From Candidatus Blautia excrementipullorum (GTDB lineage: Bacteria; Bacillota; Clostridia; Lachnospirales; Lachnospiraceae), in the NCBI GenBank assembly GCA_019118645.1, contig DWYN01000052.1, positions 1 to 64,000 on the forward strand: 64,000 bases of DNA, read 5' to 3'. Shown in pieces: positions 4,713 through 36,048 of this stretch. The notes under the pieces were generated by a model. That model made no database searches and had not been told where the DNA came from. It saw only the letters and a program-made list of their open reading frames with translations. A program made the position numbers and the translations under genes. The number at the start of each line of letters is the position of its first letter. Position 1 is the first letter of the stretch.

Positions 4713-6632
4713 GTGAAAAAGAAACTCACCAAGTTGCTGATCGGTGCTTTTGCTCTTGCCATGGCTGTAGTGCAGCCTGCCGCTGCGTTACCTGACACAT
4801 CGCCGCTGAATACTATTGTTACAGCGGACGCGGCAACGGCCACACCAGGCAAAGTCAAACTGAAGAGCATCAAGGCAGTCACCAACAACAAGATCCAGAT
4901 CAACTGGAACAAGACATCCGGCGCTACACAGTACCGTATCTACTATAAGAAATACGGCACAAGCAAATGGACGTTCCTCAGCACGGTAAATACGAATGTT
5001 ACTTCGTATACGCATGCTTCTTCTGCAAAATATCCTATTAAATGCGGCCAGAAGTATACATACACCGTCCGCGCATATAACAGTACAACCAAGAAATGGG
5101 GAAGCTACGATACAAAAGGCCTTACTACCAGGACGGCGCCGACCACCGTCGCATTAAAGGATGCAAAAAGGAATTCTAATAATACGGTAACAGTATCCTG
5201 GAATAAAGCCTACGGTGGAAATTATTACAGGGTATACCGTAAGACACCTGGATCCGGCTGGAAACTGATTGCCACCGTAAAATCCAATGTCTTATCCTAT
5301 ACAGACCAGAATCCGGCAAAAGGCCAGAAGAACACTTATACAGTGCGTATGTATAACAGCGCTATGAAAGTTGCCGGCGGCTACAGGGTAGCGGGCCTTT
5401 CTGTTACCATCCCCAAAACAAACACTACGGCAGTTGGGACACCGGAACTGACCAGTATCAAGTCTGCTGCTTATAACAAGATCACGGTCAACTGGAAAAA
5501 AGCCGCAAACGCTACAAACTACAGGATTTACTATAAGACTCCCGGCAGCTCCTGGAAACTGATCGCCACAGTTGGTTCTAACGTAACCTCTTATACCCAT
5601 ACTTCTTCTACACGGTATCCGATCCGCTGCGGCCAGAAATATACTTATACAGTAAGGGCATACAATAGCAGGACTAAGAAGTTGGGGCGCTATGACACAA
5701 AGGGCTTGACCGCCTATACAGTACCATCTGCTGTCGGACTGAAAGCTGCAGTGCAGAATAGTGATGGAACCGTAACTGTTTCCTGGAACAGGGCTTATGG
5801 TGGAAATTTCTACAGGGTATATCGAAAAACCACTTCCGTTCCTTCATGGAAACTGATTGATACCGTAAGTTCTTCTGTATTATCCTATACAGATAAGAAC
5901 CCAGTAGTAGGAGAGAAAAATACCTATACGATCAGGATGTATAACAGCGTGATGAATGTTACAGGGGGATATGATGCGAACGGCGTATCCGTAACCATCC
6001 CGGAAAAAGAACCGGAAGTAACACCTACTCCGGATCCCGAAGAACCTGAGATGAGCCTCGATGAAATGGCTCAAGAGATAATAATGCTGACCAATGAAGA
6101 GAGGGCAAAAAAAGGGGCAGCACCGCTAGAATATTCTCCAACGCTAAATTATTTAGCTTGGATTCGTACAGCACGATTACCTGTTACCGGGTCAACCGAG
6201 GGAATACTGGGAGTACATGAAAATTTATTTATAAATACTAATGTCACTTCCCCTGAAAATATCGTAAATAACTGGATGAATATCCCCGAATACCGTGACG
6301 CGATTCTCAATCCTGATAATTGCGTTACCGCGGTTTCTGTATACAAAGCTAGTGACGGGAAAACCTACTGGGTACAATTAATTTCAGACAGGCCGGGATA
6401 TCTGACAAGTGTTATATATCATGTCACCCTTAATGCCAATGGCGGCACATGTAAAGCAAATAGTTTCATGGTACTTATGGGTTTTGATGTTGAGCAATCT
6501 AAGCTCCCCATACCTACCCGTGAAGGTTACACCTTTAAAGGATGGGCATTTCCTGAGTCTGATAATCCATTTATATCATTCTCAATAGTAAGTGACGTCA
6601 CAATATGTGCCATTTGGGAACCAAACAGCTAA
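4713..6632 (+). CDS. Secreted protein: four Fn3-like repeats, CAP/SCP domain, InlB B-repeat (prophage cargo)
   Basis: 639 residues starting at GTG 4713 behind a strong AAGGAAGGAG. Order: signal peptide (about 1-26), four beta-sandwich Fn3-like repeats of about 95 residues in an A-B-A-B pattern (about 45-435; A repeats contain RIYYK and CGQKYTYTVRAYN, B repeats YRVYRKT and NTYTxRMYN), a proline/glutamate linker, a CAP/SCP domain (about 450-565; LTNEERAKKGAAPLEY...WVQLISD), and an InlB/Listeria-Bacteroides type repeat at the C-terminus (about 575-639; LNANGG...GYTFKGW). No LPXTG sorting signal is seen, so release or wall adherence through repeats is likely. It is the outermost prophage gene at attL, opposite to the late operon and with its own upstream dyad, which fits a lysogenic-conversion gene. 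Role in adhesion or host interaction is inference. Confidence 0.8.
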   Translation: MKKKLTKLLIGAFALAMAVVQPAAALPDTSPLNTIVTADAATATPGKVKLKSIKAVTNNKIQINWNKTSGATQYRIYYKKYGTSKWTFLSTVNTNVTSYTHASSAKYPIKCGQKYTYTVRAYNSTTKKWGSYDTKGLTTRTAPTTVALKDAKRNSNNTVTVSWNKAYGGNYYRVYRKTPGSGWKLIATVKSNVLSYTDQNPAKGQKNTYTVRMYNSAMKVAGGYRVAGLSVTIPKTNTTAVGTPELTSIKSAAYNKITVNWKKAANATNYRIYYKTPGSSWKLIATVGSNVTSYTHTSSTRYPIRCGQKYTYTVRAYNSRTKKLGRYDTKGLTAYTVPSAVGLKAAVQNSDGTVTVSWNRAYGGNFYRVYRKTTSVPSWKLIDTVSSSVLSYTDKNPVVGEKNTYTIRMYNSVMNVTGGYDANGVSVTIPEKEPEVTPTPDPEEPEMSLDEMAQEIIMLTNEERAKKGAAPLEYSPTLNYLAWIRTARLPVTGSTEGILGVHENLFINTNVTSPENIVNNWMNIPEYRDAILNPDNCVTAVSVYKASDGKTYWVQLISDRPGYLTSVIYHVTLNANGGTCKANSFMVLMGFDVEQSKLPIPTREGYTFKGWAFPESDNPFISFSIVSDVTICAIWEPNS

Positions 6633-6689: not shown

Positions 6690-7937
6690 TTAATTCGATG
6701 GTAATTGAAGCGTTGTAGTGCCACTCCCGCATCCTGTTTTCTCTATACAGAACTGGTAAACGCTTGCTCCTGTAGTAGGAGAGGGATGTATTCCATCATA
6801 CATGTCTTGATCTGCCTTACTTGGGTTTAGGTCGTAAAACCAGCCATTTCTCTTTAAGTGGTCATACAAATCAATTTTTGTGTAAGATCCATTACTACAT
6901 ATTCCATTAATAATGTCATTCATTACCTTAATATCAGCCACCGTTACGCCTGCTTGATTGTCATGTGCGTAAAGTGTTGCATTACTTACCGGATAAACAG
7001 TAGCAAAATAAAGTTTACAACCGCTGTCTATGGCTTTCAGTTTAGTAGCTACACTCTGGAAGACGCTTGGGTATTTTTCACGATTAACTTTTGATGCTGC
7101 ATCATTGACGCCCCAGTTAAATATAATGATGTTATTTTTGTCTTTATGAGATTTTAATTTGGACTCCAATTTAGGAAGTCCTGTACTTTGGAACCAATCG
7201 ATCCCTTTTCCCATTGCTTCAACAAACTCAACTTTTCCATCCAATTTTTTATTGTCCGACCCATCTTGGCTTAATGCTCCACCATTTACCAGTGTATCGT
7301 AAAGATGGGTCATTCTGGAATCCCCAACAAAATACACTACTGTATTGTCTTTTGGAACGCTGACTTCGTACTCATAAGAATTTGTATTTTCCTTAAAGGC
7401 CACCATATAATAAACGCCGCCGGATTTAATCGTATCGCTTTCCATAAAGTAGTCGCCTACTGCCTGAACAATATTTTTTCCACTGGATTTTATATTTTCA
7501 GGAGTGAATACCGCATGTTTCGTCTTTGACCAGCCCAAAACATTATATTCTACGCAGGCAACGGAAGGGAATTTATCATTAACTTTCAGATGAGTGTAAT
7601 ACGTCCCATCTGGTCTGAGAAACACAGCAGTTGATGTATTTAAAGGCTCATTTGATGTTACAGTTGCTGTCTGATCATTTTTCACACTTACCGTATAAAC
7701 TGTTTTATCCAGATCATAGCCATCCGGGGCAGAAAATTCCTTAACATAATATGTCCCAGCTGGCAGATCACAGGAAATATCGGAATCATCATCTACAAGC
7801 CCTATCCATAACGCATCCATGGATTGTGTGCAGGCTTTATCTCTGTATATTCCGTATCCTGCGCCAGTTACGGGGACAGATAAGTTTGATTTCTTTACAA
7901 CCTTGACATTTCCATGATCTTTTTTTCGTAGGCGCAA
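6690..7937 (-). CDS. SpaA-like repeat + SGNH hydrolase-like domain (3' part of a frameshifted gene)
   Basis: Continuation in another frame of the gene starting at 8856. The open frame begins at a TTG with no ribosome binding site and overlaps the upstream part by 101 bp. Contents: the last SpaA/prealbumin-like repeat (GNVKVVKKS...GAGYGIYRDKACTQS...GTYYVKEFSAPDGYDLD), a further beta domain, and from about residue 200 an SGNH/GDSL-type domain with block I VYFVGDSRM, an asparagine block FNWGVND, and DGIHPSP near the end (catalytic Asp-His pair). SGNH domains remove ester groups from carbohydrates or lipids; the substrate here is unknown. Without frameshifting this part would probably not be translated. 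Confidence 0.7.
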   Translation of the reverse strand: MRLRKKDHGNVKVVKKSNLSVPVTGAGYGIYRDKACTQSMDALWIGLVDDDSDISCDLPAGTYYVKEFSAPDGYDLDKTVYTVSVKNDQTATVTSNEPLNTSTAVFLRPDGTYYTHLKVNDKFPSVACVEYNVLGWSKTKHAVFTPENIKSSGKNIVQAVGDYFMESDTIKSGGVYYMVAFKENTNSYEYEVSVPKDNTVVYFVGDSRMTHLYDTLVNGGALSQDGSDNKKLDGKVEFVEAMGKGIDWFQSTGLPKLESKLKSHKDKNNIIIFNWGVNDAASKVNREKYPSVFQSVATKLKAIDSGCKLYFATVYPVSNATLYAHDNQAGVTVADIKVMNDIINGICSNGSYTKIDLYDHLKRNGWFYDLNPSKADQDMYDGIHPSPTTGASVYQFCIEKTGCGSGTTTLQLPSN

Positions 7938-27610: not shown

Positions 27611-28868
27611 TTCCTTCACCCCCTTTCATGTACTGGTTTCCAACCTGCGTGAGCGGGATGTAATTTCCGTTTACAATCAGGGTATCTCCGCCTTCCTCGG
27701 AAGGAAGATCCAGGTATTCCCTGGCTTCGTTTGGTTTGTATATTCCATTATTCACTGCTTTCGCCAGGTTCTCCATCTGTGTTTTGCTGTCTGTCCGGAG
27801 GATTGCTTTTTCGTTGAATTTATAAAAATTTTGGTTTGCGATCTCCTGCGGCAGAAGGACCTTCCCATTGATCTCCTCTTCGTACATTTTCAGGCGGTAA
27901 GACATCGTATCCACCAAAAAGGCCAGCTGCTGCGTCTCGCTGTTTGCGTAGCTGGATTTTTCATAATTATTGATTTGGTTCGGTTTGATCCCGAACGCCC
28001 CAGCGATCTGCAGCGCACTGTATTTTCTAAGCTCAAAAAATTGAGCGTCAGCAAGGCTTACGTTCAGCGGCGTCAGTGTAAGCCCCATCGGAACAGGAAC
28101 TACTTTTCCAGCGTTCTCCGGCCCTGACAGCGATTTTGCAAATTTTTCTTTCAATTTTCCGACACGTTTATCATCCAGATCCCCGGTGTACTGCATGGCC
28201 ATACTTGCGGTGAGCCCGTTTTTGTACAGCTGGTTCATATAATTCTGGCTTTCATTGGCTCCGTCTACAGTGGCCTTCAGGATATTCCGCACCGGTTCTC
28301 CGGTGAAGCCATCCAGGCTGTACCAGGTCTTAAAATGCATCACTTCACTGTTTTTAAACAGGTATTGCTTTCCTGTTTTCGGATCGCTGTACCGGTAATA
28401 GATGTTCCCTTCCCCTCCCCAGATCCCGATATCGTCCATGATCGGTGTGACATATTGGCTCTGCATAGGCCACATATCCATGATCTGGTATTCTCCTCCG
28501 TACCTTGAAGGAGTAAACCTTCCTCTCATCCAGATATATCCATTCCCATAGTGCTGGCAGTTCTGTTCTACCGTGGTCCACATGGTGGTCGGAGTCATAA
28601 AGGGATTGGGCCGCACAGTCATGAGTATTCCCGCTGTTGTTGGATCCGCCCGTATCCTTCCCCTGTCGGTCTGCTGGTAATATTTCAGCGGCATCTTTCC
28701 AATGGTCTCCGAAAGCATCTTCAAGCATGTGAAATATGTCACTTCCGCCACCGCTTTTTTATTTGATGTATCTATCCCTAACCATTCAAGGAGTTTTTCA
28801 TCGTTCAGTTCTGCCGTCGGCCTTACCAGCTCTGTCATGGCATTTTTTATTCTTTTCCAAATTCCCAT
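27597..28868 (-). CDS. Portal protein, HK97 family
   Basis: 423 residues. ATG at 28868 shares TAATG with the terminase stop and is preceded by GGAGAG. Characteristic parts: VTYFTCLKMLSETIGKMPLKYYQ, LMTVRPNPFMTPTTMWTTVEQNCQHYGNGYIWM, VMHFKTWYSLDGFTGEPVRNIL and a C-terminal AFGIKPNQINNYEKSSYANSE. Forms the dodecameric portal ring and motor docking site. Confidence 0.95.
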   Translation of the reverse strand: MGIWKRIKNAMTELVRPTAELNDEKLLEWLGIDTSNKKAVAEVTYFTCLKMLSETIGKMPLKYYQQTDRGRIRADPTTAGILMTVRPNPFMTPTTMWTTVEQNCQHYGNGYIWMRGRFTPSRYGGEYQIMDMWPMQSQYVTPIMDDIGIWGGEGNIYYRYSDPKTGKQYLFKNSEVMHFKTWYSLDGFTGEPVRNILKATVDGANESQNYMNQLYKNGLTASMAMQYTGDLDDKRVGKLKEKFAKSLSGPENAGKVVPVPMGLTLTPLNVSLADAQFFELRKYSALQIAGAFGIKPNQINNYEKSSYANSETQQLAFLVDTMSYRLKMYEEEINGKVLLPQEIANQNFYKFNEKAILRTDSKTQMENLAKAVNNGIYKPNEAREYLDLPSEEGGDTLIVNGNYIPLTQVGNQYMKGGEGNGSN

Positions 28869-30634
28869 TACCATTCACTCTCCAAAAATTCGTCAATCCC
28901 TTTTAGGATAGAAGGATAGAATTCATGGTACATTGCCAGCTTATACGCGCATAGCACAGCATCTACCGGGTCTATCCTTTTTGTGGTGGCATCTTTATCG
29001 ATCTTGATCAGTCCGTTGCTTCTTTTTACAACCGCATTGCTCATGGCGTAATTCAGCAGCGGATTATAGGTGTATATAATATTCCGGGCAAACACCTGCT
29101 CCCGGAATCCCTGGGTGGATTCATTCAGGGACTTGTGGCTCTGGAAGACTTCTTCCACATCGTACCCCTCGTCCGAAAGATCCATCATGATCTTGCTGGC
29201 ATTGGCCGGGTCGAAGCATAATGTCTTGATATTCCATCCATGTTCTTCGCAGGTTTTCATGACATATCTCATTACCGCTGCCTGGTCCACGATCGGGCTG
29301 TCTGTTACCGTCAGGAATCCCATCCTTTCCCAGGCGTCATAATCAACTTTGTCCCTTGCCTTCCTTTCCGCAAGCTTTTCCCTGTTCGGGATGAATGAGT
29401 GGGAATAAACGATATATTTTACAATCGTCTTTCCGTCCTCATCTTTCTCATCGCTTTCGAAAGGAATCACAAAAGCAACGGAAGTCAGGTCTATTTTGGC
29501 CGACATATCGAAGCCCACATAGACATCGAATCCCCTGGTATCTATCGGAATCTCGTCCACCTGGCAGTCTTTCCATTTCGCCATATCCATGTAGCCGTTT
29601 TCTGTCGCCTGCACCCATATGTTCAGCATCTTCGTGAGGAATGCGGTCATTTTTTCCGGAATGTTTTTTGCCACCTTCCAGGCATTCCGGATCTTCTTCC
29701 GGCCGTTTTCATAACTCATCCGGATCGGATTCGCTTTTTCCCAGAGCTTTTCGTTCTCCAGGTTGCTCACATCTTCTTTGTAATCCTCCGGATCCACTTC
29801 GCAGATATCTATCAAATACTCATCATTCCATATATCTACATCAGGGTTTAGAACGCTGGAACAATAGGTATATTCCTGCGTGTAACATGGATATGTAAGA
29901 TCCATTCCCGCAGTTGTGATGATCATCAACAACGGTTCTTTAGTGTTGGATCCCAGCCCCAGATCATAAAATTCCGTTGTTTTGTGCTGGTGATATTCAT
30001 CCAGGATCAGCCCTGCCGGGTTTGTTCCATCTCCATTCTGTCCATCTTCCTTGGACAGCGCTTTTATAAAACTTCCTGTTTTTCTATGTAATACTGCATC
30101 CCTGGTAATTTTAAAAGACGGCTTCAGCGGGGAATTATTAAGCATCAGTTTCGCTTCGTTCAGAATGATCTTCGACTGGTCCCGTTTTGTCCCGGCTGTA
30201 TAATACTCATAGTTCTCCTGGTTTTTTGTGGCACACACGGATATTTCGTAAAGCGACACTCCGGCTTCCATCTGTGACTTTGCGTTTTTCCTTGCCACTT
30301 CAGTAAAGGATTGCTTAAATCTTTTATATCCCGTTTCCTGCTCCCGCCATCCATATAACTGGCAGAGATTAAATTTTTGCCAGGTTGTCAGTTCGATCGG
30401 CTGTCCCGCCAGCTCCCCTTTTGAGTGCCGCAGTAACCTGAACCAATCTACAATATTCTGCGCTTCCTCTTCGTTCCAAATGTATCCCCACCCTTCTGTC
30501 AGGACATTCCTTGCCGTCTCTTTCTGGCAGTCCTCCAGATACCTCTGGCATGCCCATCTGTGCTTCTTTCCTGATATGATCTCCCCATTCAGGCACTGAT
30601 TGGCATATTCCATAAGTTCTTCCCGGATGGTCAT
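28868..30634 (-). CDS. terL: Terminase large subunit
   Basis: 588 residues with an N-terminal ATPase and a C-terminal nuclease domain. The Walker A-like motif is ARKNAKS (114-120), the variant without a canonical GKT that is common in HK97-type terminases. Walker B is LILDE (D212, E213). Nuclease acidic residues lie in VGFDMSAKIDLTSV, LCFDPANA and RIDPVDAV. It drives DNA into proheads and cuts at genome ends. Overlaps terS by 4 bp. Confidence 0.95.
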   Translation of the reverse strand: MTIREELMEYANQCLNGEIISGKKHRWACQRYLEDCQKETARNVLTEGWGYIWNEEEAQNIVDWFRLLRHSKGELAGQPIELTTWQKFNLCQLYGWREQETGYKRFKQSFTEVARKNAKSQMEAGVSLYEISVCATKNQENYEYYTAGTKRDQSKIILNEAKLMLNNSPLKPSFKITRDAVLHRKTGSFIKALSKEDGQNGDGTNPAGLILDEYHQHKTTEFYDLGLGSNTKEPLLMIITTAGMDLTYPCYTQEYTYCSSVLNPDVDIWNDEYLIDICEVDPEDYKEDVSNLENEKLWEKANPIRMSYENGRKKIRNAWKVAKNIPEKMTAFLTKMLNIWVQATENGYMDMAKWKDCQVDEIPIDTRGFDVYVGFDMSAKIDLTSVAFVIPFESDEKDEDGKTIVKYIVYSHSFIPNREKLAERKARDKVDYDAWERMGFLTVTDSPIVDQAAVMRYVMKTCEEHGWNIKTLCFDPANASKIMMDLSDEGYDVEEVFQSHKSLNESTQGFREQVFARNIIYTYNPLLNYAMSNAVVKRSNGLIKIDKDATTKRIDPVDAVLCAYKLAMYHEFYPSILKGIDEFLESEW

Positions 30635-31113
30635 ATATTCCCGAACTTCCTTGTGATTTCTTCCTGGGTTTTATCGGTTTTGATTGCTGCCGCCTTCAAT
30701 CTGGCGTCTATCGTCAAGCCACACAGGGAAGCGAACCGTCTCATTTCGTCTGCATAGGTACGCTGGATGTCTACCATGGGATTTTTTACTACGATTACGC
30801 CCGTCCGGGTTTCTCGGTCTATATAATAACTCTGGTCTTTCAGGATATTGGTCGCCTTTACATAGTTGGCAAATGCATTACAGTAGCCTCCCAGGTTGTT
30901 ACGGTCCAGGTTCCCGATCAGGTTTATCTTTTTTAATTCCCTGACGATCCTTTTCCATTCTTTAACGGCCACTTCATCAATTAGCCAGTCCGGCGGCCGG
31001 CTTAATTGGTTTGCCCCGGTTTTTATCTTTTTTTCTTCTGCTTTTCTCCGTTCCATGCTGACAATTGTCAGATTTCCCTTCTGCATGTCGAGAGGCTTCC
31101 TGGCTCGTCCCAT
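30631..31113 (-). CDS. terS: Terminase small subunit, P27 family
   Basis: 160 residues. Features of the P27 family: RPPDWLIDEVAVKEWKRIVRELKKINLIGNLDRNNLGGYCNAFANYVKA and LCGLTIDARLKAAA near the C-terminus. It recognises packaging DNA and loads terL. Preceded by GAAGGTGAG. An HNH gene lies directly upstream, the arrangement associated with cos-type packaging. Confidence 0.92.
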   Translation of the reverse strand: MGRARKPLDMQKGNLTIVSMERRKAEEKKIKTGANQLSRPPDWLIDEVAVKEWKRIVRELKKINLIGNLDRNNLGGYCNAFANYVKATNILKDQSYYIDRETRTGVIVVKNPMVDIQRTYADEMRRFASLCGLTIDARLKAAAIKTDKTQEEITRKFGNI

Positions 31114-31207
31114 ACTCTCACCTTCTTTTTTGCCAACTTTTATTTTTTATTTAGAAAATTGCGTAAAGAAAGGAGGGAACGCGGTCTGGGCGTTTTTTCC
31201 AAAACTT

Positions 31208-31630
31208 TTAGACTCCCCCCTGCCCTGCTGTTTCCCTGAATCTTTTCAGCATTTTCAGCAATTCTCTCTGCATTTTCTGTTTATCTTTTTTGTACATCGA
31301 CTCTATCAGACTGTGCGTATCATGGTTCAGGCTCATAAGATTACTGATATCACATCTTTTTTCCCAGTCATCTTTCAGCGGAATAATGTGGTGGGCGGTA
31401 TCTGCATGTTTGATCTCTCCTGTTGTCTCAAAGAGATATACATCAATCCCCTGGTCAGCCTCCATTGCGTCAGCCCTTGCCCTGATCCACTCCCCGCTGT
31501 CGTAGAATTGTTTGCTCTTTTTGTCCCGAATCAGCCTGTCATACTCTTTATGTCTATCTTTTAAACACGGACACCTGCTGCCCGCCGGGATCCTGCTGCC
31601 GCACCTGCTGCACCGTTTATATATCGGCAT
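31208..31630 (-). CDS. HNH endonuclease (terminase-associated)
   Basis: 140 residues from ATG 31630, 7 bp after GAGGTG. N-terminal zinc-ribbon cysteines (YKRCSRCGSRIPAGSRCPC) and the HNH core: the EWIRARADAMEADQG segment, HADTAHHIIPLKDDWEKRCDISNLMSLNHDTHSLIE. HNH proteins next to terS/terL in Gram-positive and HK97-like phages are required with terminase for cos cleavage; the same role is inferred here. Confidence 0.9.
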   Translation of the reverse strand: MPIYKRCSRCGSRIPAGSRCPCLKDRHKEYDRLIRDKKSKQFYDSGEWIRARADAMEADQGIDVYLFETTGEIKHADTAHHIIPLKDDWEKRCDISNLMSLNHDTHSLIESMYKKDKQKMQRELLKMLKRFRETAGQGGV

Positions 31631-31644
31631 TTTATAACACCTCT

Positions 31645-31762
31645 TTAAATACAGTCCTGCCAGCGCCATAGTGACAGCCGATTGCCGCCACGCCGAAAGG
31701 AGGTGTGCAAACATACCAGGACTGCCAAATCACTGATATGCTGGCGCTGTACACGCTGTACG
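31645..31762. other. Dyad-rich region upstream of HNH/terminase, candidate cos/terminase-binding region
   Basis: Contains CAGTCCTG (31652-31659) with its reverse complement at 31717-31724, CAGCGCC (31661-31667) with its reverse complement at 31743-31749, and a direct repeat CGCTGTAC at 31745-31752 and 31754-31761. It lies just upstream of the HNH-terminase genes, where cos is often located. No cohesive-end sequence can be proved. Confidence 0.35.
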
Positions 31763-31785
31763 ATTGATAATCTATTTTGTTGCAC

Positions 31786-31815
31786 AAGAAAAGCACCCAG
31801 ATTGTTCTGAGTGCT
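31786..31815 (-). terminator. Terminator after the dam-like gene
   Basis: Minus strand: AGCACTCAG-aacaat-CTGGGTGCT (one G-U pair) followed by TTTTCTT, starting just after the methylase stop. It could limit readthrough from the Dam gene into the late genes unless antiterminated. Confidence 0.7.
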
Positions 31816-31816
31816 G

Positions 31817-32557
31817 TCAATAATTTTTAATGATCAATTCTTTGTACCTTCTGATCCCTGACTTGGTTCGGAGATTGTCTGACCGGTCAATCTCTAATAT
31901 CTTGTATCCATCATAAAGGTTTCTGATCTCTCTGCAGTCATTGTAAGATAAAATGAATTTCCCCTGGATATTCCTCAGAGTATTTCTCATCCGTTCATGA
32001 TCTTCCGGCATAAATCTGTCTGGATAGTATTTTTCTGTGTCGTAATAGGGTGGATCTAAATAAAACAGGGCGTCCTCTCTGTCGTAGGTCCTGATCAGAT
32101 GCTCAAAATCCAAATGTTCTATCACAACTTTATCCAGTCTCTTCGATGCTTCTTTTAGGAATTCGACTGCCTTTCGCATATTTTTCGGCCGGACGCCGAA
32201 AGAATCCAATTTCGTTCCGTAGCTCTCCTTGATGGATATAAAGAACCTCGCCGCCCTCTGGATATCTGTCAGGCCTTTGATATCTTGGATCGCATCAAAG
32301 AATAATTCCCGGGACATCAAAACACCATCCAATTCCTTTTGTATGGCTTCCGGATGGTACTTTACACATCGATACAAATTGATAAGATTACTGTTTACAT
32401 CATTGTATACCTCCATTCCTTTTTCTTCTTTTCCAAACAATACCCATGCAGCACCACCGAATACTTCGATGTACCGTCCGTAGTCTTCCGGGAATTGTTC
32501 CAGTATTTTCTTTCTCAGCAGCTTCTTACCGCCGATCCAGCTTATAAAACTATTCAT
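31817..32557 (-). CDS. DNA adenine methylase (Dam / D12 class)
   Basis: 246 residues from ATG 32557 with GGAAGG 8 bp upstream; the longer frame reading into the tRNA is spurious. N6-adenine methyltransferase: FISWIGGKKLLRKKIL (SAM-binding motif I), YIEVFGGAAWVLFGK, NDVNSNLINLYRCV and the catalytic LDPPYYDTEKYY (motif IV). Phage Dam enzymes protect DNA from host restriction or mark replication/packaging sites; GATC specificity is the family default, not shown here. Confidence 0.92.
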   Translation of the reverse strand: MNSFISWIGGKKLLRKKILEQFPEDYGRYIEVFGGAAWVLFGKEEKGMEVYNDVNSNLINLYRCVKYHPEAIQKELDGVLMSRELFFDAIQDIKGLTDIQRAARFFISIKESYGTKLDSFGVRPKNMRKAVEFLKEASKRLDKVVIEHLDFEHLIRTYDREDALFYLDPPYYDTEKYYPDRFMPEDHERMRNTLRNIQGKFILSYNDCREIRNLYDGYKILEIDRSDNLRTKSGIRRYKELIIKNY

Positions 32558-32605
32558 GCATATCGCCTTCCTTACTTTTATTCGTAGGAAAGCCTTGTCG
32601 GGTAA

Positions 32606-32679
32606 TGGATCTTCTGGGACTCGAACCCAGGACCGGCCGGTTATGAGCCGGCTGCTCTGACCAGCTGAGCTAAAGATCC
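32606..32679 (-). tRNA. tRNA with CAU anticodon (Met elongator or Ile2)
   Basis: 74 nt on the minus strand. Perfect 7-bp acceptor stem (GGATCTT/AAGATCC), D arm GCTC-AGCTGGTCA-GAGC, anticodon stem GCCGG/CCGGC with loop CTCATAA, T arm CTGGG-TTCGAGT-CCCAG. CCA is not encoded. CAU could decode AUG, or AUA if modified to lysidine; sequence alone does not decide. It lies between a GAAA-loop terminator and the Dam gene. Confidence 0.92.
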
Positions 32680-32683
32680 GTGC

Positions 32684-32713
32684 AAAAAGCCCCATATTTC
32701 TATGGGACTTTTT
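32684..32713 (-). terminator. GAAA-tetraloop terminator, left copy
   Basis: Minus strand: AAAAAGTCCCATA-gaaa-TATGGGGCTTTTT, a 13-bp stem with one G-U pair, ending 5 nt before the tRNA. Same shape as 33738-33764. Confidence 0.8.
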
Positions 32714-32754
32714 AAGTTATGGTTGAAAATGGTGAGTTCTTTTTTCTTTTTAAC

Positions 32755-32801
32755 CTGTATACAGCATAACACAGGTAGAGTGTGCAATTCTATGCAGTCT
32801 T
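32755..32801 (-). promoter_or_regulatory. Late-type promoter repeat, left copy
   Basis: 47 bp matching 33813-33859 at 36 of 47 positions. On the minus strand it ends in an extended -10 (TGTTATGCT, -10 at 32763-32768) without a -35 consensus, and contains CACACTC...CTGTG half-sites. The predicted RNA meets the GAAA-loop terminator after about 45-70 nt. Downstream lie tRNA, Dam, HNH and the late operon. An activator-dependent late promoter used by the ArpU-like protein is inferred. Confidence 0.5.
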
Positions 32802-32927
32802 TTCTGTCCACGGAAAGTTTTTTAATGCATTACTGTGGATATCATGTGTCCTTCTCCAACTGCGTCTCTCAGGTTGATCAAGTATTCTTCTATGAATCAT
32901 TTCTGCTTCTTTGTCATTCAGGCTCAC
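32790..32927 (-). pseudogene. Remnant of an ArpU-like gene 3' end
   Basis: 45-codon frame ending SWRRTHDIHSNALKNFPWTEKTA, which aligns with the C-terminus of the intact ArpU-like protein at 33848 (SWKQVHRIHSDALRNFKMT). Both stop codons sit at the same place in the adjoining 47-bp repeat. The sigma-region-4-like helix before SW is mostly deleted. It is preceded by GAAGGTGAG-like sequence and may still be translated, but looks decayed. Confidence 0.6.
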
Positions 32928-33011
32928 CTTCTTTTAAGGTAAAAATGTAAAGTTATGTTTTATATTTTTTATTCTCTTTCATCCGTTTATAAATATTTAG
33001 TCAACAATTCT

Positions 33012-33698
33012 TTATTTACTAATTTTCAAAAATTTTTCATATTTAACCCATAACCTATAAAAATCAATTATTTGATCTTTTCTAGATTTAAATGTAGGAT
33101 TTTTGAAATAATATCCCACAAAATGCTGATGGGTATAATCGTTCTCTAGTTCTCTTAAAAACTGACAATCTGCTATTTCTTGCAATATCGCTAATTCTTC
33201 TTCATCCATATAATTAGCCAATTTTACATAAATTTGATCTATCACGTTCAAAATATATGTCGCTTGATTTCCAAAAAACTCTAAAAAATTATATTGCTCG
33301 TTTATTCCTCCAAATACTCCACATAAATCATTCATTCGAATTTTTTCAGAACATTCTGCTATCTTTTCTTCGGTAACATCGTGTAAAGAATAGCTACCTC
33401 CTAAATACAACTTCCATATTCTTTCTACAGCATTTTTTATAGATTTTCTTTTATTTGTTATTGCGTTTTCGAATAATGCTTTTTTCCTAATCCATCTAAT
33501 ATAAACTGTAAAGAAGTAAAAAAAAGTGCTTGCAATTATACTATAAGATATTTGAACAACAATCTTTAAAAAAGAATATAAAAGTTCATTGTTTTGAAAC
33601 ATTCCCCCCGATAACTCATACAATAATACTATCAAGCAAGCTACTAGACATATAATTGCAACTGCTTTTTCACTACATAAAAATTTGTACTTTTTCAC
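33012..33698 (-). CDS. AT-rich two-TM protein of unknown function (cargo gene)
   Basis: 228 residues. The GTG at 33698 is chosen because GGAGG lies 8 bp before it; the ATG at 33716 overlaps that site. Two hydrophobic segments (about 12-31 and 44-68) form a hairpin, followed by a cytoplasmic, mostly helical domain of about 155 residues (KRKSIKNAVERIWKLYLGG..., CGVFGGINEQYNFLEFFGNQATYILNVIDQIYVKLANYMDEEELAILQEIADCQFL). No known domain recognised. Base composition is markedly more AT-rich than the flanking phage genes, and the gene is bounded by two copies of a promoter-terminator module. That is the signature of a moron; superinfection exclusion or phage defence is a hypothesis, not shown. Confidence 0.75.
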   Translation of the reverse strand: MKKYKFLCSEKAVAIICLVACLIVLLYELSGGMFQNNELLYSFLKIVVQISYSIIASTFFYFFTVYIRWIRKKALFENAITNKRKSIKNAVERIWKLYLGGSYSLHDVTEEKIAECSEKIRMNDLCGVFGGINEQYNFLEFFGNQATYILNVIDQIYVKLANYMDEEELAILQEIADCQFLRELENDYTHQHFVGYYFKNPTFKSRKDQIIDFYRLWVKYEKFLKISK

Positions 33699-33737
33699 AC
33701 TAGTTTCCTCCAACATTTTCTTTTATCATACACCAAA

Positions 33738-33764
33738 ACACCCCGTATTTCTACAGGGTGTTCT
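33738..33764 (-). terminator. GAAA-tetraloop terminator, right copy
   Basis: Minus strand: AACACCCTGTA-gaaa-TACGGGGTGTT followed by TTGG, an 11-bp stem with one G-U pair. It sits between the right promoter repeat and the two-TM cargo gene, so that transcript would meet it within about 75 nt. Confidence 0.7.
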
Positions 33765-33812
33765 CAAAAATGTTAGGGGAGTTAAATTGAGTGGTTTCTT
33801 GTCCTTTGAAAT

Positions 33813-33859
33813 CTATATACACTATAGCACAGATGGAGTGTGTCATTCTATGTCATCTT
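33813..33859 (-). promoter_or_regulatory. Late-type promoter repeat, right copy
   Basis: 47 bp starting in the last codons of the ArpU-like gene. Minus strand has an extended -10 TGCTATAGT (-10 at 33821-33826), no -35 consensus and CACACTC...CTGTG half-sites shared with 32755-32801. Followed by the GAAA-loop terminator. Confidence 0.5.
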
Positions 33860-34273
33860 AAAATTTCGCAAGGCATCCGAATGTATTCTATGAACCTGTT
33901 TCCAACTATATCCCATCTCCACAGCAACTTCTTCCCATTTCAACCCTTTTATGTAGCGGAGCCTCAGAACTCTCTGTTCGTCCTCGTCTTTCATCTGTCG
34001 GATCCGTTGTTCAATCTCCTGCTGCCGCTTCGCTCTTTTGAGGCGCTCTTGTTTCAGATCTTCAATCATCTCGTCAATTGTTACTATGTAATCAGACAGG
34101 TCCGTCTGACTGCTGCCGTGGGGCATCCCGTCATTAACTATGGATGGAAACATCTTGTCCAGGCGCAGGCGCTGTATCTCATCCAGAATATCCTGTTCCC
34201 TCTTGACTGATCGCTGGTATGATTTCAGATATTCCTTCTTTTCTTCATTTTCTGTCCATTCCTTTTCTGTCAC
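33848..34273 (-). CDS. ArpU-like / sigma-70 region 4-like late transcription activator
   Basis: 141 residues. N-terminal two thirds are charged coiled coil. The C-terminus (QRVLRLRYIKGLKWEEVAVEMGYSWKQVHRIHSDALRNF) is a sigma-region-4-like helix-turn-helix as in ArpU/DUF1492 family phage regulators. Such proteins sit at the end of the early operon and switch on packaging and structural genes. Here the two repeats just downstream are the obvious candidate targets. It is upstream of the cargo gene and the late operon. Confidence 0.8.
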   Translation of the reverse strand: MTEKEWTENEEKKEYLKSYQRSVKREQDILDEIQRLRLDKMFPSIVNDGMPHGSSQTDLSDYIVTIDEMIEDLKQERLKRAKRQQEIEQRIRQMKDEDEQRVLRLRYIKGLKWEEVAVEMGYSWKQVHRIHSDALRNFKMT

Positions 34274-34293
34274 GATCTTTCCCTCCCTGGTTT

Positions 34294-34581
34294 TTATTTC
34301 TGCATCATCCGCCTGAGCTTTGTATATGGCGGAGCTGTCCGGCTGCCATGCTCATCTGCAAGCAGAACGCAGTGTTTATACAATTCGATAATACGATATG
34401 TCTTAAATTTTGTTTTCGTCTTTCCATGCGGCTCCGTTTGATCCACAAGTTTAACGGTGATTTTCTGTCCCCGTTTCAATCCATATTCCTTTTCTCTTTC
34501 TTTCTGCAATTCTTCCCAACGTATGTTGCTGATCGCCTGTCCCGGTGTTGGGTCTGAGATTCCTTCGTTATTTCTGTACAT
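34294..34581 (-). CDS. Phage hypothetical protein
   Basis: 95 residues: NIRWEELQKEREKEYGLKRGQKITVKLVDQTEPHGKTKTKFKTYRIIELYKHCVLLADEHG, a small beta-barrel-like sequence typical of early-operon proteins next to ArpU. No function recognised. Confidence 0.65.
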   Translation of the reverse strand: MYRNNEGISDPTPGQAISNIRWEELQKEREKEYGLKRGQKITVKLVDQTEPHGKTKTKFKTYRIIELYKHCVLLADEHGSRTAPPYTKLRRMMQK

Positions 34582-34675
34582 GTCTGCCCTCCTTTTCTAT
34601 TGGCTTAAAGATACCTTTCTCCACACATTCCAGTGGACTGCAGCCTCTGCTGTGGCCGTGGTGTGCTATGTAGTC

Positions 34676-34783
34676 TCAGGTTCGGTTTGCAAATACCGTC
34701 TTGCTTCTGCCGATGCTCCCTGACAGGTAAATGCACTTACTGCACTGATCGACTTTTAATTTATTTATCTCTTTTTCCGTCAT
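34676..34783 (-). CDS. Very small Cys-pair phage ORF
   Basis: 35 residues (MTEKEINKLKVDQCSKCIYLSG...SKTVFANRT), ATG 34783 with GGAAAGAA upstream, overlapping the end of the next ORF in another frame. CxxC suggests metal binding, as in its neighbours. Supported only by start context and resemblance to small phage zinc-ribbon proteins. Confidence 0.45.
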   Translation of the reverse strand: MTEKEINKLKVDQCSKCIYLSGSIGRSKTVFANRT

Positions 34784-34967
34784 TTCTTTCCATGGTTTTT
34801 TCTTCATCTCTGTCCTCCCAGAATTCGCATTTCCGGCACCTGTTTTTACTGCTTACTAAGGTGCCCTTGATCATCGTTGCATTGCGGCAGGTTGGAAGGA
34901 CGTATACTGCAAGCTGTCCCACCTCTTTTACATGCCGGCAGATTTCATAATGTTCCTTTCTTTTCAT
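34761..34967 (-). CDS. Small Cys-containing phage protein
   Basis: 68 residues (EICRHVKEVGQLAVYVLPTCRNATM...KNRCRKCEFWED). Four cysteines in C-x~16-C...CxxC spacing could bind zinc. Overlaps its upstream neighbour by 4 bp (ATGA). Function unknown. Confidence 0.6.
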   Translation of the reverse strand: MKRKEHYEICRHVKEVGQLAVYVLPTCRNATMIKGTLVSSKNRCRKCEFWEDRDEEKTMERNDGKRDK

Positions 34968-35131
34968 GGTCTGTCCTCCTGGTGTTTCCGGTGATTGTCA
35001 CCTGCTGCCCTGAAATCCCCATTACGATCCCGATGCTTTTCGCAGGTGTCGTCATCCTCTACCAATATTCCTAATCTGTCACAAAGTCCATCGTCGTTGT
35101 CTGCGCATGTTTTGCACGTCTTTTCTTCCAT
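34964..35131 (-). CDS. Small Cys-rich phage protein
   Basis: 55 residues from ATG 35131, behind GGAGGGTGAGG. MEEKTCKTCADNDDGLCDRLGILVEDDDTCEKH: CxxC-x8-C-x15-C, likely a zinc knuckle. One of several short Cys-rich early proteins in 34.7-37.2 kb. Confidence 0.65.
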   Translation of the reverse strand: MEEKTCKTCADNDDGLCDRLGILVEDDDTCEKHRDRNGDFRAAGDNHRKHQEDRP

Positions 35132-35198
35132 TGTCCTCACCCTCCCTGAAATATTTTTATACATTTATTTTCGACTTCTCTTTTTCTCATCTCTGTGT

Positions 35199-35204
35199 TA
35201 TACT
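35199..35204 (+). promoter_or_regulatory. Extended -10 promoter of tRNA-Ala
   Basis: TGT-TATACT immediately 8 bp upstream of the tRNA 5' end on the plus strand, an extended -10. No clear -35 at 17 bp. Confidence 0.5.
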
Positions 35205-35212
35205 ATCCGCAT

Positions 35213-35285
35213 GGGGCATTAGCGCAGCTGGGAGCGCGCCACACTGGCAGTGTGGAGGTCACGGGTTCGAATCCCGTATGCTCCA
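35213..35285 (+). tRNA. tRNA-Ala(GGC)
   Basis: 73 nt on the plus strand, opposite to all neighbouring genes. Acceptor GGGGCAT/ATGCTCC, D arm GCGC-AGCTGGGA-GCGC, anticodon stem CCACA/TGTGG with loop CTGGCAG (anticodon GGC), T arm ACGGG-TTCGAAT-CCCGT. No full CCA is encoded (only the discriminator A). A T7 run follows directly and may end the transcript. Confidence 0.93.
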
Positions 35286-35290
35286 TTTTT

Positions 35291-35746
35291 TTATTTGCCT
35301 TCCGGTCGGTACGGATCCGGAAGAGGTCGCCAGGCTATAATAGTTGCCGCAGCTCCGCATAGATGGAAGAACATCTTTCTGGTATGCGGGCTGTTCCAAC
35401 CATAGCGATAAATCAAAACTTCATCATACTTATTTGTTCCGAGAACATATTCCCCGACTTCTGGCAGCCTCTCTTCCACCGGACTCCAACCGTCATTCTC
35501 TTTGTTTTTCAGATTCTGTATTTCCTTCCGTAGTTCTCCACATTCTCGGGATTTCTCCCGCAGGCAGAACTGCATGTCCTTGATCTGCTGAGGCGTAAGG
35601 TCTGACATGTAATGCTCAATCATCTGACCGACACGGAATACGGAAATTAATTCTGATCCGTTTGTGTATATCTGTTGCTTGTCACTGAAAGAGTATTGTT
35701 TGATAAAATCTATTGGATTTTCCGGATAATTCATTGTCTCTCCCAT
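35291..35746 (-). CDS. DUF551 domain phage protein
   Basis: 151 residues from ATG 35746, 6 bp after AGGAGG. C-terminal 60 residues (DGWSPVEERLPEVGEYVLGTNKYDEVLIYRYGW...IIAWRPLPDPYRPE) are a typical DUF551 domain, common in phage early regions with unknown function. A coiled coil at about 70-90 precedes it. Confidence 0.8.
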   Translation of the reverse strand: MGETMNYPENPIDFIKQYSFSDKQQIYTNGSELISVFRVGQMIEHYMSDLTPQQIKDMQFCLREKSRECGELRKEIQNLKNKENDGWSPVEERLPEVGEYVLGTNKYDEVLIYRYGWNSPHTRKMFFHLCGAAATIIAWRPLPDPYRPEGK

Positions 35747-35760
35747 ATTCGTCCTCCTTT

Positions 35761-36048
35761 TTAGTATGTGCACTCGCCGCAAATTCCCGTCTCGCTTAAG
35801 TAGGCTGGGCTTTCTTTACAAACACACAATTCAATTTCTTCTTCGTCGCTGTTTTCTATCTTTTTCATCCACGGACAGTTGCAGCACTCATGAACTGTTT
35901 CATCGTCACCTGCTGCCGCGTCCGGTCCTTCTCCGTATGTTTCCGCGCAGACTTTACTGTCCGGATAAAATAATAAGCATGCACCTCCTGTAATCTCGCA
36001 TTCCCAACCGTGATATTGATCTGTTTGTTTTGCTGCTTTACATCCCAT
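35761..36048 (-). CDS. Cys-rich phage hypothetical protein
   Basis: 95 residues with ten cysteines (WECEITGGACLLFY, ECCNCPWMKK, ELCVCKE, GICGECTY). Strong AAAGGAGG before the ATG. Probable multi-zinc protein; not recognised. Confidence 0.65.
   Translation of the reverse strand: MGCKAAKQTDQYHGWECEITGGACLLFYPDSKVCAETYGEGPDAAAGDDETVHECCNCPWMKKIENSDEEEIELCVCKESPAYLSETGICGECTY

Follow-up and report, generated by a model that had tools for sequence, protein, structure and literature searches.

In phage lambda, the gene of the late regulator Q lies beside the promoter PR′, which is followed by the terminator tR′ and then by the late genes. Here we describe a predicted late-control locus in a 64,000-nucleotide stretch of DNA from Candidatus Blautia excrementipullorum (contig DWYN01000052.1 of assembly GCA_019118645.1, positions 1 to 64,000; hereafter the window), in which a regulator gene of the arpU family likewise adjoins a promoter, then a hairpin of terminator type, then the late genes, an order that the accessible text of PMC7969949 and PMC11150451 discusses for lambda Q. 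AlpA of Pseudomonas aeruginosa (PMC7969949) and GafYZ of Caulobacter (PMC11150451) are described there as positive regulators acting on termination, and by that description their layout is also one of a promoter, one or more terminators and then an operon; their hosts are unrelated to that of the window, and the elements of AlpA and, putatively, GafZ lie between -35 and -10. In Phi13, promoter P23 is Ltr-dependent and has repeats at the 3′ end of ltr, and earlier work cited in the same source found four repeats in Ltr promoters (PMC13123087, as far as its text is accessible). Ltr promoters with repeats at the end of the regulator gene are already known. The locus in the window is like these in that its ArpU carries a DUF1492/sigma-70 region 4-like domain, scored above the cut-off, and in that direct repeats and a promoter lie at the 3′ end of arpU with packaging genes downstream on the same strand; it is unlike them in that a leader terminator is common among arpU loci, whereas the main text of PMC13123087 nowhere uses the word terminator. 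In the literature searched, which covered few subscription papers, we found neither leader terminators, nor a helix code, nor a cassette for the arpU family, and no paper that combines ArpU, a late promoter and a terminator.

We consider it moderately probable that the window holds a mosaic late-control locus, in which ArpU drives an upstream promoter, A, and polymerase reads through the hairpins into the late genes. The upstream part (arpU, operator and promoter A, hairpin A and a cargo cassette) would come from one phage lineage, and the downstream part (a decayed arpU end, operator and promoter B, hairpin B, tRNA-Met, Dam methylase, HNH endonuclease and terminase) from another. Resident ArpU would probably occupy two ATGACA half-sites that stand in place of a -35 and bring RNA polymerase to promoter A at its extended -10. 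It would then let the polymerase continue past hairpin A, through the cargo and past hairpin B as far as the tRNA and the late genes; in the absence of ArpU only few transcripts would be made, and these would end at hairpin A. The architecture, the half-site code and the frequent leader terminators are seen in the sequence, while binding, start sites, expression in the lysogen and ArpU-dependent readthrough are inferred, the last being plausible.

Two predicted arpU-family promoters bracket a cargo gene

On the minus strand, the order of elements is arpU, repeat A, hairpin A, cargo, decayed arpU end, repeat B, hairpin B and tRNA-Met, continuing 3′ of the latter with Dam methylase, HNH endonuclease, small terminase and large terminase; arpU is thus upstream of the terminase genes on the same strand, with the cargo in between. 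The elements of the control region are as follows, in window coordinates.

33848..34273, minus strand: arpU, predicted resident late regulator, 141 residues (Sigma70_r4, DUF1492 and phrog_36 matches; AlphaFold model)
33841..33856, minus strand: putative operator A, two ATGACA half-sites 10 bp apart, spanning about -42 to -27 relative to the predicted start (family pattern)
33821..33829, minus strand: predicted late promoter A, extended -10 TGC-TATAGT without a -35, predicted start at about 33814 (motif and profile searches)
33737..33762, minus strand: hairpin or terminator A, closed by a GAAA loop and lying at about +52 to +77 (folding energy -19.3 kcal/mol, z -6.7)
33725..33753, minus strand: probable own promoter of the cargo, TAGAAA (inside the hairpin), 17 bp, TATGAT (sigma-70-type scan; cassette recurrence)
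33012..33698, minus strand: cargo gene, 228 residues, GTG start with Shine-Dalgarno, 27% GC, putative membrane protein (phrog_35088, E 1.1e-5)
32814..32861, minus strand: what is left of a second arpU, still encoding the recognition helix SWRRTHDIHSNALKNF (blastx E 8e-5)
32783..32798, minus strand: putative operator B, half-sites ACTGCA and ATTGCA 10 bp apart (sequence comparison)
32763..32771, minus strand: predicted late promoter B with the extended -10 TGT-TATGCT and a start predicted at about 32756 (profile score 14.3)
32684..32713, minus strand: hairpin or terminator B, closed by a GAAA loop and lying at about +43 to +72 (folding energy -17.6 kcal/mol, z -5.8)

A preliminary description of this stretch had reported two 47-bp repeats lying at the stop of an ArpU-type frame that is intact at the right and decayed at the left, each with an extended -10 that lacks a -35 and each followed by a GAAA-loop hairpin of the same design, and all of these observations held. 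The repeats are exactly as reported, at 33859-33813 (copy A) and 32801-32755 (copy B), with 36 of 47 positions identical, and local alignment of the two copy regions scored 87, compared with a mean of 28 and a maximum of 60 for 500 dinucleotide shuffles. Copy A contains the stop codon of intact arpU (33848-33850), copy B comes after the decayed ArpU C-terminus SWRRTHDIHSNALKNF, and at both the extended -10 is present and the -35 absent. When a promoter profile derived from 94 arpU loci, copy A included and copy B left out, was run over both strands of the 64 kb, copy A scored 16.7, copy B 14.3 and the next best match 9.0, with copies A and B the only sites in the window to reach a profile score of 9. 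An exact match of ATGACANNNNATGACA, the sequence of operator A, occurs once in the window. Folding of the whole leader gave z -1.9 for hairpin A and -4.7 for hairpin B. Hairpin B (32691-32706) was also listed as a plus-strand terminator with a T run and may be bidirectional.

The loci behind the profile came from 200 genomes of the host's family, 295 genomes of its order, and viral and named genome contigs. Matches to arpU occurred in 20 of the 200 family genomes and in 85 of the 295 order genomes (own genome included), so that regulators of this type are frequent in the host's order; from the order genomes, 70 of 119 listed places were used. Of 106 loci in total, 95 were left after those with at least 85% protein identity were dropped, and 94 of these had enough downstream DNA for a motif search from 70 nt before to 130 nt after the arpU stop. 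This revealed a motif with a log-likelihood ratio (LLR) of 612 at the 94 arpU ends, compared with 228-276 in five control sets drawn from control regions of the same loci, and 73 of the 94 non-redundant loci carry the promoter motif with a score of at least 7. Among these 73, TG is present in 65 and at least four of the six bases of the -10 in 71, whereas a -35 (at least five of six bases) was no more frequent than in shuffles (1.4% versus 2.2%) and gave no signal. An extended -10 without a -35 is therefore the usual state of arpU-family promoters as judged from their sequences, and both copies in the window conform to it.

Paired half-sites covary with the recognition helix of ArpU

ArpU matched Sigma70_r4 (PF04545, E 7.7e-8) and DUF1492 (PF07374, E 9.6e-7), both above the cut-off, as well as phrog_36 (E 6.4e-25). 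It is built of long N-terminal helices and a sigma-region-4-like helix-turn-helix, modelled by AlphaFold with a pLDDT of 91, in which residues 123-136 (model numbering, first residue omitted) form the recognition helix. We take ArpU to be one of the Ltr-type late regulators. In a Foldseek search with ArpU, sigma region 4 folds ranked first, none of them at E <0.001. We also considered ArpU as a homologue of Q and rejected this, the comparison having covered a 169-residue part of Escherichia coli YdfT (PF03589).

Upstream of the -10, a direct repeat of a half-site (at least six of seven positions) at a spacing of 10 bp was found in 54 of the 73 loci, compared with about 5% of shuffles and with 0-4 of the 73 loci at each of the other spacings from 5 to 18. 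The half-sites vary between loci and mostly agree within one locus, and they follow the recognition helix: ATGACA goes with the helix sequences SWKQ or SWKT (window, L002, L009, L062, L068), ATGATA with EWAQ (L007, L008, L012, L047), ATGTCC or ATGTCA with ERH and related helices, and GTACA with SWKW (L003, L095). Across 38 loci, similarity in the helix residues WKQ or their equivalents was correlated with similarity in half-sites with a partial r of 0.55 after control for overall identity and for the C-terminal half of the helix stretch, a value reached in none of 2000 permutations, while the nine C-terminal residues of the helix stretch gave a partial r of -0.13. The 12 protein pairs below 45% identity that share all three residues have identical half-sites, compared with a half-site identity of 0.52 for 263 pairs that share none. 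When half-sites were predicted from the nearest distant locus, their identity was 0.82 by four helix residues, 0.68 by the rest of the protein and 0.63 at random. The informative residues fall in the first half of the modelled recognition helix.

Some observations speak against so simple a code. A lysine at the ninth position of the helix stretch occurs without a GT half-site in L029, L030, L090, L091 and L106, asparagine occurs without TGCA in L075 and L078, and the 38 loci were picked for clear repeats after inspection. We nevertheless regard the covariation of helix and half-site as the best sequence evidence for the predicted binding of ArpU to the half-sites. In the window these lie at about -42 to -27, unlike the case of lambda Q, for which the corresponding position is between -10 and -35; unlike Q, too, ArpU is sigma-region-4-like, and its profile did not match the tested part of YdfT. 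A helix-to-half-site code would allow the pairing of regulators and promoters to be predicted, including orphan promoters left behind by recombination.

Copy B resembles the operator of a lost regulator

The preliminary description had taken the two modules to be copies of one another, which comparison with other loci did not bear out. In DNA alignments copy B scored 73 with L033, 71 with L095, 64 with L011, 59 with L097, 58 with L132 and 58 with copy A, and its CTGCA/TTGCA half-sites fit a helix other than that of resident ArpU. TTGCA half-sites like those of operator B are also found in L004, L011, L097, L131, L132 and L133, and a scan of viral contigs with the DNA of operator B alone returned three contigs, namely L131, L132 and L133. 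In L132 the adjacent ArpU has the helix SWRRIHQIH, whose SWRR is the same as in the remnant, and the order of elements is like that of copy B, with ArpU followed by a TGCA operator, a hairpin (-21.1 kcal/mol) and a tRNA. L131 and L133, which have identical ArpU ends, carry the helix SWRQTHNIH, with ArpU about 1.9 kb upstream of the site resembling operator B. The remaining three pair YRRTLD with CTGCA/TTGCA (L004), YRQVHN with GTGCA/TTGCA (L011) and YRRTLQ with TTTCA/TTGCA (L097).

The genes behind copy B have counterparts elsewhere. L138 comes from a different genome of the family; downstream it carries the same tRNA-Met along with a Dam methylase 76% identical to that of the window, and upstream a different cassette cargo. 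In the cargo-free L096, arpU is followed by promoter, terminator, Dam methylase (59% identical) and what is by eye a small terminase. A search of 299 family genomes with the DNA of copy B gave matches in 273, and among the matches listed outside the window only the tRNA-Met part, with at most a short flank, was matched. L096 also carries a skipping-rope RNA (Rfam, 62.7 bits) at 6847-6926.

As copy B is no closer to copy A than to other phages, and as its half-sites fit the differing helix of the remnant, the two seem unlike simple duplicates. Comparison across loci supports the view that copy B is a candidate operator of a lost regulator, from a lineage different from that of copy A. The simplest history would be a recombination event that joined two late-control modules at a point within the older arpU, for which no parent pair was found.

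Two points weigh against this origin: among blastx matches of the remnant, resident ArpU has the best E-value (E 8e-5, 58% of 19 residues), followed by L132 (E 1.5e-4, 69% of 16), with weaker similarity extending upstream of the remnant, and promoter B is well preserved beside its decayed gene. The first of these, together with the 36 of 47 identical positions and the shared GAAA-loop design, could mean that copy B arose from copy A by tandem duplication when the cargo inserted, and then degraded. We consider this quite improbable, given that this promoter and hairpin design is common to other phages, that both B half-sites belong to the TGCA type and the SWRR of the remnant recurs in L132, which has that type of half-site, and that the genes behind copy B match those of L138; a simple duplication of the module is likewise disfavoured by the alignment scores given above and by the type of the half-sites.

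The second point means that promoter B may still be used, since it has been preserved although its gene decayed. Promoter B could then be the working late promoter, either independent of ArpU or cross-recognized by it, with the upstream cargo unit a separate insert; its intact profile (14.3) and its place directly before tRNA-Met and Dam methylase would suit this. The half-sites of operator B, however, are not of the type that the code assigns to resident ArpU, and hairpin B separates promoter B from the late genes. As tRNA-Met begins 4 nt behind hairpin B, transcription from promoter B would itself need readthrough of that hairpin to yield the tRNA. We regard it as unlikely that B, and not A, is the working late promoter.

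Terminator-like hairpins are frequent in the leaders of arpU-family promoters

The preliminary description had suggested that late transcription has to pass a terminator, and the survey of arpU loci agrees with this. Terminators were called as hairpins of at most -10 kcal/mol with a loop of at most 9 and at least five T in eight, a rule that overlooks large-loop hairpins such as those seen by eye in L034 and L040. A terminator beginning between the start site and +220 was present in 53 of the 73 loci, compared with 29 of 219 control windows drawn from these loci, and a free energy of -12 or lower was reached by the arpU-end regions of 65 of 91 loci, compared with 30 of 546 shuffles. In 34 loci the first open reading frame (ORF) lies within 70 nt of the T tract, beginning 15-41 nt after it in 31, and in 29 of these 34 tight loci a sigma-70-type match is absent between hairpin and ORF. 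In one clade, a group of five loci outside the 73, which come from three genomes (L076, L085, L088, L092 and L093), have their promoter about 280 nt behind arpU, and all five possess one terminator before the promoter and another after the start (-10.1 to -12.0 kcal/mol), indicating that the post-promoter terminator is not merely that of the early operon. Three of these (L076, L085, L088) are among the 94 loci with a score below 7, their promoter lying outside the stretch first searched, and L092 and L093 had been dropped as near-duplicates.

A terminator between the late promoter and the first late gene is a likeness to lambda Q, seen in the window by folding and not in a stricter scan, and seen in 53 of the 73 loci and in the five of the clade. 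Its frequency behind arpU promoters would put many of these regulators in the logical class of lambda Q and make termination control testable in their phages. We put forward tentatively, as slightly less likely than not, that ArpU/DUF1492 proteins could be a separate group of processive antiterminators derived from sigma region 4, a Q-like switch of independent origin with a readable helix code. They would be loaded onto RNA polymerase through paired half-sites at an extended -10 promoter and would take it past a leader terminator to the late genes. Were this true, ghost operators of lost regulators would become recognizable.

Several observations weigh against such a role. In the window, neither hairpin A nor hairpin B was listed by a stricter terminator scan of the minus strand, because their U residues lie largely within the stem; the U tracts at both are short, and terminator strength is therefore uncertain. 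Among the relatives, the rule finds no terminator in 20 of the 73 loci, the control windows of the census are mostly coding DNA, and five tight loci out of the 34 (window, L003, L047, L099 and L107, mostly cargo loci) have a sigma-70-type match behind the hairpin that could restart transcription. The predicted start of L035, L041 and L075 is followed by an ORF after only 26-35 nt, which leaves no room for a terminator, so that ArpU there must be able to act by activation alone. The hhalign probability of ArpU against the YdfT part was 0.1 of 100, and PF06530 matched two of 16 ArpU proteins, weakly (best E 0.007). Phi13 Ltr, and TP901-1 Alt cited with it, are described as activators in the accessible text of PMC13123087, and the word terminator is absent from its main text.

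ArpU could be an activator only, with weak hairpins that end early (arpU) transcripts or shield the cargo and late genes and that unaided readthrough suffices to pass. This possibility, which we find rather doubtful, draws on Phi13 Ltr, which acts as activator of a promoter with upstream repeats (PMC13123087, in its accessible text), on the three loci without room for a terminator and on the short U tracts in the window. The half-sites overlap the -35 region, moreover, a usual position for activators. It is harder to reconcile with the enrichment of leader terminators over control windows, with the close and mostly promoterless spacing from T tract to first ORF, and with the separate early and leader terminators in all five loci of the clade. 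Since no terminator was detected in 20 of the 73 loci and three have a close ORF, ArpU is probably an activator; where a leader terminator exists, something must probably also give readthrough. A second -10-like element was considered by eye as a sigma pause site and rejected, its position being unlike that in lambda.

The cargo sits behind a recurrent cassette of hairpin and probable promoter

The cargo gene has a GC content of 27%, compared with 46% for the window. Its described length of 228 residues stood, as a GTG start at 33698 with a Shine-Dalgarno sequence is better than a 234-residue ORF, whereas the claim that it has no recognised family has to be qualified by one weak match to phrog_35088 (E 1.1e-5), a family of unknown function. 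No homologue was confirmed in viral contigs and none was found in phages or plasmids; there was none at E 0.001 in 199 other genomes of the family, and nothing better than E 1e-4 in other genomes of the 392 searched, where most order-level matches hold internal stops. PADLOC returned no defence family, and the AlphaFold model (pLDDT 45) was useless.

Directly 3′ of hairpin A lies TAGAAA-17-TATGAT, the sole sigma-70-type match on the minus strand in 32550-33950, with a -35 that overlaps the hairpin; neither this match nor the tRNA-Met behind hairpin B figured in the preliminary description. The scan yielded two matches in total, compared with 6.0 expected in shuffles, so that this match alone means little. 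The combination of hairpin and -10, however, recurs as a cassette in eight loci (window, L002, L003, L004, L097, L119, L120 and L138), and its pattern was found in 2 of the 295 order genomes (that of the window and G028, the source of L138), compared with none for the reversed control. By eye, L101 has the hairpin without a fitting -10. The cargos behind the cassette include a ParA-type ATPase (L003), a DUF6864 protein (L138) and a 718-residue protein with sub-threshold NTPase matches (L097), while those of L002 and L004 have no Pfam family; that of L120 is ParA-like by eye, so some cassette cargos are related. A terminator behind the cargo was seen by eye in L002, L004, L097, L104 and L138, and none by eye directly behind that of the window, where hairpin B follows 300 nt further on.

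The preliminary description had the cargo arriving with or through a copy of the late promoter. A scan that demands the repeat would itself miss copy B, and the search was redone on 12 relatives by profile alone. In the seven cassette relatives with other cargo, the stretch examined had one profile match of at least 9 on the gene strand in six and none in L120. As these relatives hold cassette cargo with no second copy seen, the cargo need not have come through a copied promoter, and that proposal is not upheld. The cargo is thus a passenger, standing behind this cassette of hairpin and promoter, and, because different cargos stand behind one cassette, sequence comparison identifies the place between late promoter and packaging genes as a variable passenger spot. 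The cassette thereby marks a spot at which undescribed prophage genes can be sought. The locus is like phage morons and accessory-gene hotspots (PMC9122126) in having an AT-rich passenger, with what may be a promoter of its own, at a site that varies among relatives, and unlike them in that the -35 of the passenger promoter lies inside a terminator hairpin and in that one cassette precedes different cargos. Placed behind hairpin A, this promoter could serve in the lysogen while the late genes are off, so that the cargo could be made there; its expression in the lysogen is a guess.

Downstream genes and additional observations

The elements 3′ of hairpin B are the following.

32606..32679, minus strand: tRNA-Met (CAT), 4 nt 3′ of hairpin B (Rfam tRNA, 70.7 bits)
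31817..32563, minus strand: D12-class DNA adenine methyltransferase, first protein gene 3′ of copy B (family matches)
31208..31714, minus strand: HNH endonuclease (phrog_144, E 1.1e-26)
30631..31113, minus strand: terminase small subunit (PF05119, E 1.8e-20)
28868..30634, minus strand: terminase large subunit (PF20441 and PF03354)

An Rfam scan of 30000-36000 gave no RNA above the gathering score except two tRNAs. One is tRNA-Met, which is like host tRNA-Met genes and 88% identical to one in the same genome, and the other is tRNA-Ala (GGC) at 35212-35286 on the plus strand, opposite prophage early genes. Relatives, too, have a tRNA or an element resembling one in the interval from late promoter to packaging genes (L002:3598-3671, L095:6516-6587, L101:6510-6581, L104:6521-6608, L109:2062-2149, L120:6337-6411 and, on the minus strand, L138:2460-2538). 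Their acceptor and T arms are similar, but their anticodons differ from one another or are odd (Arg CCG, Cys ACA, Ile TAT, TTA twice, CATG and Trp CCA). In L003 and L119 ARAGORN found no tRNA, yet an acceptor and T arm align with the elements of the relatives. In L120, a late regulator of another type is followed, ahead of the same cassette, by repeats at 6215-6260 that lie about 18 bp apart (by eye) and recall those of 18 bp in Phi13. In L107 and L108, the cargo 3′ of arpU consists of three small ORFs, the first two of which resemble a HicA/HicB pair by eye and are accompanied by a helix-turn-helix gene.

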